A stretch of 64,000 bases of DNA from NCBI RefSeq assembly GCF_023509825.1, contig NZ_JAKQXY010000001.1:1-64000 (forward strand), given 5' to 3'. The stretch is from Spiroplasma attinicola. GTDB taxonomy: Bacteria > Bacillota_I > Bacilli_A > Mycoplasmatales > VBWQ01. The position numbers and the translations under genes are program-made. The notes beneath the pieces were generated by a model. That model did not search any database. It saw only the letters and a program-made list of their open reading frames with translations, and was not told where the DNA came from. Each line of letters starts with the position of its first letter. The first letter of the stretch is position 1. Positions 1 through 764 of the stretch are shown here, piece by piece.

Positions 1-611
1 TAGAAGAAATTACTGGAACTAGCGCAATGATAAATGATAATACAGGGCGAACAGCATTAGAAGCATTTTTAAATGCTAACAATGAACAATATCCTGAGTT
101 AAAATCCAATGTTACAATTGGTTCATTCAATCCACCAAATTATGGTCGAGATGGTTCATTAGTAATTAATGGTACAAATAAATATACTGGAACTCTTACA
201 ATAACTATTAATGGTATAGTACCAACAGATCAAGATATAGTTGATGAAATTATAAATTCTGATATAACTTTTGATGCTGTAAAATCAGTTAATGAAACTT
301 TAGAACATTTTATTAGTTCAGTTCTTCATGGACAAGATAATCCAAGTAATCCAGATAACGATCCACTTTGATACATTAAGGGACAACTTAAAAAATATAT
401 ACGTTCTTATCCAATTTTAGAATTTGCTGATGTTAATAAATATGAATTCATTCAATTTTGTCTTAAAGATAGTAATCATACACCATTAACTGATGATTAT
501 CTTAATACTAACTCAAGAGCAGGTGAAACTATTATCTTTCAAATTAATTTCAATTATGGTGAAGTACAAAATCAATACATTGATTTTGCTCTATCGTTCA
601 AACAAGAATAA
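1..611 (+). CDS. Surface protein with KYTG-type repeats (5' end outside window)
   Basis: The reading frame is open from the left edge and ends with TAA at 609-611; the TGA at 369 is read as Trp. The visible ~200 residues contain a module with the pattern LKSNVTIGSF, then a Gly/Asn stretch, then KYTGTLTITING. The gene at 20134-21210 carries two modules with the same spacing (LESNIEISSF ... KYTGSISVII), so the two are paralogues of one repeat family. No catalytic motif is visible. The family is probably exported and exposed at the surface, as in the paralogue, which has an N-terminal membrane anchor; here the N-terminus is missing, so this is inference. A strong terminator follows 14 bases after the stop. 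Confidence 0.7.
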
Positions 612-625
612 TAAATTATTACTTA

Positions 626-656
626 AGCGGCATTTAAATCATGCCGCTATTTTTTT
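626..656 (+). terminator. Rho-independent terminator
   Basis: The arms AGCGGCAT (626-633) and ATGCCGCT (641-648) form a GC-rich 8-bp stem with a 7-nt loop, followed by a run of seven T. It ends the partial surface-protein gene and separates it from the lipoprotein promoter. Confidence 0.9.
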
Positions 657-677
657 AATTTAATTTTAAACAAGTTA

Positions 678-706
678 TTGTCTTGCCCCCCCCCTAATGA
701 TACAAT
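678..706 (+). promoter_or_regulatory. Promoter with C9 tract in the spacer
   Basis: A -10 box TACAAT (701-706) lies 17 bp after a weak -35 box TTGTCT (678-683). The spacer contains nine consecutive C (686-694), very unusual in such AT-rich DNA. The lipoprotein start codon at 765 is about 58 bases downstream. Homopolymer tracts between -35 and -10 boxes are a known phase-variation device in mollicute surface lipoproteins; here that role is inferred from layout only. Confidence 0.6.
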
Positions 707-764
707 GATTAAAAAACATTTTACCTAAATTGAAAAATACTTTTTTAATAGAAAGGGTGAGTCA

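Follow-up and report, generated by a model that had tools for sequence, protein, structure and literature searches.

A run of nine cytosines (C9) lies in the spacer of a putative promoter upstream of a lipoprotein gene of the wall-less bacterium Spiroplasma attinicola, and on balance we lean towards reading it as a functional slippage switch or rheostat, with a promoter that is plausibly phase-variable. Three observations carry this reading, namely the sequence layout, its recurrence at promoters of surface genes in the genus, and the lack of MutS. Slippage, its effect on transcription and a mixture of lengths in the population are predicted from the sequence, and the locus is a candidate for switching. 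The window analysed here makes up the opening 64 kb of contig C1, which has 632,388 bases and belongs to a genome of 835,706 bases and four contigs (G000); open reading frames were translated with TGA as tryptophan. The features, in window coordinates unless a contig is given, are as follows.

1–611, + strand: 3′ portion of a gene for a spiralin-family surface protein, truncated at the contig start and with its first ATG at 27 (tblastn and blastp to the 683-aa gene of the C11 locus)
626–648, + strand: intrinsic terminator of the upstream gene, 8-bp stem and T-run (fold z = −3.55)
678–683, + strand: candidate −35 TTGTCT, weak, changed in the paralogous copy
686–694, + strand: C9 tract, promoter spacer and candidate slippage site (sequence and run counts)
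698–700, + strand: extended −10 element TGA (TG at 698–699), common to the C11 and C13 loci
701–706, + strand: −10 TACAAT, the sole promoter-like site in 600–780 and the best one upstream of the gene
712–714, + strand: putative transcription start, placed from the −10 position
725–730, + strand: CTAAAT, aligned to TATAAT of the orthologues, probably a decayed ancestral −10
752–756, + strand: Shine-Dalgarno-like AAAGG
765–1565, + strand: 266-aa lipoprotein with signal peptide and lipobox VTA-C (PLSVTA-C) (ORF and orthologues)
1611–2852, + strand: YitT-family membrane protein (PF02588, PF10035), probably co-transcribed across a 45-bp gap
C2:175334–175344: C11 tract, in the context TTTG-C11-GTGATAAAAT

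The segment 678–706 contains, in order, TTGTCT, TG, CCCCCCCCC, TAATGA and TACAAT. The first-pass annotation had placed TTGTCT and TACAAT around C9 with 17 bp between them, and this holds letter for letter; the tract thus lies within a spacer of near-optimal length. The same annotation had named C9 as the longest C run of the window, and it is in fact the sole run of C or G longer than five bases in the 64 kb, where Markov models of orders 1–3 predict only 0.0001–0.002 C9 runs on both strands. We agree that the −35 is weak. The hexamers alone are not significant, as shuffling of the 180-bp region yields 1.3 promoter-like sites per shuffle. An alternative −35, TTGCCC at 683, is conceivable: its spacing is 12 bp at present and would be 17 bp at C14, so that it would predict a different ON length. 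The extended −10, the terminator at 626–648 and a conserved lipoprotein–yitT unit go beyond what the first-pass annotation had described.

The terminator is predicted to separate the lipoprotein gene from upstream transcription, and the gene would therefore need a promoter of its own here. The idea that the C run belongs to a hairpin or terminator was rejected, since the terminator lies at 626–648 and the Cs remain unpaired in the fold. Separately, C8 and G6 runs pair as inverted repeats (hairpins) near two gene starts (L043 5673–5710 and L045 4707–4731); one lies upstream of an ECF-transporter-like gene, and such a hairpin is possibly a riboswitch or a terminator.

We propose that C9 acts as the slippage-prone spacer of a σ70-type promoter with an extended −10. 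Replication slippage would add Cs to the tract or remove them. Specifically, gain or loss of one base would change the spacing from 17 to 18 or 16 bp and rotate the −35 region, so that the number of Cs would alter how far apart the −35 region and TGATACAAT lie, and their helical phase. Such a shift would make transcription of the lipoprotein gene, and probably also of yitT, stronger or weaker, and would yield a mixed population. By analogy with opc, porA and fetA (PMC2791445) and with vlp, maa2 and vmm (PMC2268961), a change of spacing would be expected to alter transcription. Graded control is likelier than full ON/OFF switching, since the extended −10 takes over part of the role of the −35 and a conserved membrane gene lies downstream; a promoter of this type may tolerate spacing changes, blunting the effect of C9.

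The repair background is permissive, a property that is not strictly defining for a switch of this kind. A model search found no MutS in the S. attinicola genome or in seven family relatives, and the same model matches 11 of 14 control genomes, in accordance with the reported universal absence of mutS and mutL in Spiroplasma (PMC8208695). Slippage would go uncorrected because MutS is absent, and in a pure C tract it should be frequent.

The gene downstream of the tract encodes a protein whose signal peptide and lipobox point to a surface-exposed product. Searches of Pfam and NCBIfam gave no match for the 266-aa protein, which thus carries no recognizable spiralin-type domain; spiralin-type members at these loci are the neighbour at 1–611, the C11 gene and the C13 gene only. 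A single-sequence structure prediction of the lipoprotein reached a pLDDT of 35. Orthologues are present in seven of the eight other family genomes, with identities of 51% in G002, 43% in S. platyhelix and about 31–34% in the five others. Furthermore, yitT is the next gene in every family genome that has the lipoprotein (8/8), with a YitT identity of 59–68%. The two genes therefore form a conserved unit, and the lipoprotein is not a member of a variable antigen family; a switch at the promoter would probably act on both genes.

The tract is not retained among the orthologues. No C run of at least six bases was found upstream of the orthologues in seven family genomes, and a search for tract-length variants, in genome collections with one genome per species, found the tract absent from all orthologues. 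In S. platyhelix and G002, an extended −10 (TGTTATAAT) sits 36–38 nt 5′ of the ATG and aligns with TACCTAAAT at window positions 722–730, while the tract promoter lies 64 nt 5′ of the ATG. The aligned site is probably a decayed ancestral −10, and the tract promoter therefore looks like a newer one, to judge from an alignment of three sequences of AT-rich DNA.

A possible origin of the tract site is a duplicated block. Window positions 9–715 match a copy at C2:152 kb with 85% DNA identity over 731 aligned columns, and the block runs from the 3′ part of the spiralin-family gene through the 3′ flank of that gene and the tract site to just beyond the −10. At the tract site the paralogous copy reads CTTG-CTTTTCGTC-TAATGATACAAAT, with equal length and flanks; its nine bases there contain no homopolymer, and TTGTCT is not retained. 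The next gene, about 200 bp downstream of that copy, is an ORF that we take to be diadenylate-cyclase-like. Either state, homopolymer or mixed site, may be the ancestral one. Both ends of contig C1 lie within spiralin-family genes (window 1–611 and L048 1563–2389), and this repeated family is probably where the assembly breaks.

The whole genome has twelve C7+ runs. CRISPR spacers account for four of them and hairpins for two; a methyltransferase, a GH85 glycosidase and a PTS-like gene hold one apiece, another adjoins a tRNA-like sequence, and the remaining two are next to an extended −10. The idea of an invariable link between long C runs and promoters in this genome was accordingly discarded, as other runs are found in coding sequence, hairpins and CRISPR spacers.

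Several of these other loci are of interest in their own right. A CRISPR array with an adjoining Cas9 gene (L042 2300–8400; G000:C1:404.3–410.4 kb) has five spacers that consist of a GGGACCTTTTACTAACCA-like sequence followed by C6, C7, C9, C12 and C13, as if a single invader whose C tract varies had been sampled several times. No source was found for these spacers in IMG/VR (exact matches) or outside the array in nine family genomes (two mismatches). An N6/N4 DNA methyltransferase carries an in-frame G13 (L045 6197–7864; G000:C1:617–621 kb), the other frames stopping within 6 and 18 codons, and lies next to a ResIII helicase (L045 7858–10125); together they are a candidate phase-variable, type III-like restriction-modification system. 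A GH85 endohexosaminidase has a G8 near codon 697 (L046 928–3450; G000:C2:102–104 kb), and the two alternative frames are closed within 0 and 8 codons. In addition, a family of short ORFs beginning MKTWIKTN carries G7–G9 tracts in the sister-genus relatives G003, G004, G005 and G008 (e.g. L064, L103, L105, L059 and L062); G003 has two copies with the same N-terminus, one with G7 (57 aa) and one with G9 (93 aa), and these ORFs are likely translational slippage loci.

The association of C tracts with extended −10 elements recurs at surface genes. Sites of the form C6+...TGNTANAAT number only two in the 835,706 bases, the window C9 and C11, against none in the reversed control, and both lie 49–59 bp 5′ of the ATG of a surface protein. 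At the C11 locus the first base of the −10 is 54 nt from the ATG of the gene, which encodes a signal-anchored protein of 683 aa; this protein has a weak Spiralin-domain match and beta-propeller-like matches. S. platyhelix PALS-1 (744,499 bases, complete chromosome), a congener in the taxonomy used, has CTTG-C13-GAGAAAATGATAAAAT upstream of a lipoprotein with tandem repeats that belongs to the spiralin-type family; a second good extended −10 is closer to the ATG at that locus. For the 16 C7+ runs of both genomes, 0.05 coincidences with an extended −10 are expected and three are seen (P about 2e-5, or about 6e-5 with the intergenic motif rate), values that are indicative only, because the motif was picked after the first case had been seen.

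Within the stretches of the S. attinicola genome that were read, six intergenic extended −10 sites have at least seven Cs in the preceding 20 nt, either pure or interrupted: C11, C9, GCTCCCCCTCCTCCTGAGAG, TATTGCTTGCCCTTTCCCCA, TCCATTCGCTCGCCCGAAAA and ACCCCATTTTCTGCCAAAAA, the last two being weak cases. All six precede surface genes, five of them spiralin-family genes, and the flank of the fourth site, TTATTGCTTGCCCTTTCCCC, matches the window flank TTATTGTCTTGCCCC. Of the intergenic sites that have a gene start no more than 220 bp away, 6/30 are C-rich, against 3/124 of the other sites (Fisher P 0.002), a description and not an unbiased test, since the stretches were chosen for the spiralin-type family. 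It may be that pure C tracts are live and those with interruptions locked, or that all of them represent one fixed C-rich element. The latter idea, that a C-rich (polypyrimidine) spacer is a fixed feature of spiralin-type promoters, setting their strength or binding a regulator, with a length that does not vary meaningfully, would account for the interrupted spacers CCCTTTCCCC and CCCCCTCCTCCT, which are kept at paralogous surface promoters though they should slip less. We nevertheless regard it as unlikely, because C-richness is absent from other family promoters, the common core is only TTG and the −10, and the pure C9, C11 and C13 are far longer than composition predicts.

The layout also occurs outside the genus. 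A scan of 298 Mycoplasmatales genomes gives 17 matches for C7+ with an extended −10 within the next 8 nt, against 5 in reversed controls, and 8 against 1 for C9+ before an extended −10. Five of the eight C9+ matches precede lipoprotein or surface ORFs, and TTG directly abuts the 5′ side of the Cs at all five of these surface-gene loci; one further match has a secreted-looking ORF at 140 bp. Among these five, at an orthologous lipoprotein promoter with near-identical flanks, M. agalactiae 14628 has C10 and a sister species C9. In G161 (L089 1490–1507), a further genome of the Mycoplasmatales, a C18 lies before an extended −10, with no clear gene within 450 bp downstream. Across 84,980 species, the pattern TTG-C9+-N0-15-extended −10 occurs in 53 stretches from many phyla, several of them before secreted proteins, so the layout is not special to mollicutes.

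Promoter-spacer repeats of mollicutes differ in kind, being poly-A in vlp and TA repeats in vmm. In vlp (M. hyorhinis), maa2 (M. arthritidis) and vmm (M. mycoides), spacer indels are reported to turn transcription ON or OFF (PMC2268961, citing Citti and Wise 1995, Washburn 1998 and Persson 2002). The C9 locus shares with them a simple repeat between −35 and −10 at a mollicute lipoprotein gene, but has poly-C, an extended −10 and a single-copy gene ahead of yitT, and is a candidate for switching only. The opc, porA and fetA genes of Neisseria meningitidis likewise have a homopolymer between −35 and −10, poly-cytidine in opc (PMC2791445); these are Gram-negative outer-membrane genes, for which the relation of length to expression was measured. 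In M. agalactiae, poly-G tracts precede the spma and P48-like lipoprotein genes (PMC2824730). They resemble C9 as long G/C homopolymers 5′ of mollicute surface genes, but lie in the 5′ untranslated or coding part and are not known to fall in a promoter spacer.

A warning comes from the vpma T-tract of M. agalactiae, which, like C9, is a homopolymer directly upstream of a lipoprotein −10, and which was silent when tested, showing no slippage switching (PMC2268961). It tempers the ON/OFF reading and lends some weight to a further alternative, slightly less probable still than a fixed C-rich element, in which slippage of the tract matters little, the promoter being carried by the extended −10 TGATACAAT, or the tract is a chance relic. 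The weak, unconserved −35 and the orthologous locus without a tract agree with this alternative, but C runs beside extended −10s are far above control and, again, found at surface genes. An error of assembly in the length of C9, or in the run itself, is very improbable: the site lies 686 bp from the start of C1 and adjoins a duplicated gene, so the length may be uncertain, but comparable tracts occur inside contig C2 and in the complete S. platyhelix chromosome.

The preferred reading remains a slippage switch or rheostat. The first-pass annotation had likened this site to phase-variable promoters, a view that is partly supported: the layout, the type of gene, the lack of MutS and the repeated occurrence of C-rich spacers in promoters of surface genes in this genus fit it, but the −35 hexamer on which it drew is not conserved in the paralogue. 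A broader scenario is tentative, and we would not call it probable. In platyhelix-group Spiroplasma, a cassette of TTG, poly-C and extended −10 might have spread among spiralin-type surface genes, with pure tracts as live switches and interrupted ones locked; one cassette, arriving when a surface gene and its 3′ flank were duplicated, might have replaced the ancestral lipoprotein–yitT promoter and placed the unit under phase variation, alongside the methyltransferase with the in-frame G13 at another place in the genome.

Promoter-spacer homopolymers are an established kind of element, and the more interesting part is possibly the spread of one cassette among spiralin-type genes. The open papers searched gave no account of phase variation in Spiroplasma, by such tracts or otherwise. 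Mycoplasmas of vertebrates are well known for phase variation, and the hosts of Spiroplasma are mostly arthropods, which have no antibodies. If the tracts are live, surface variation in Spiroplasma would serve something other than escape from antibodies.
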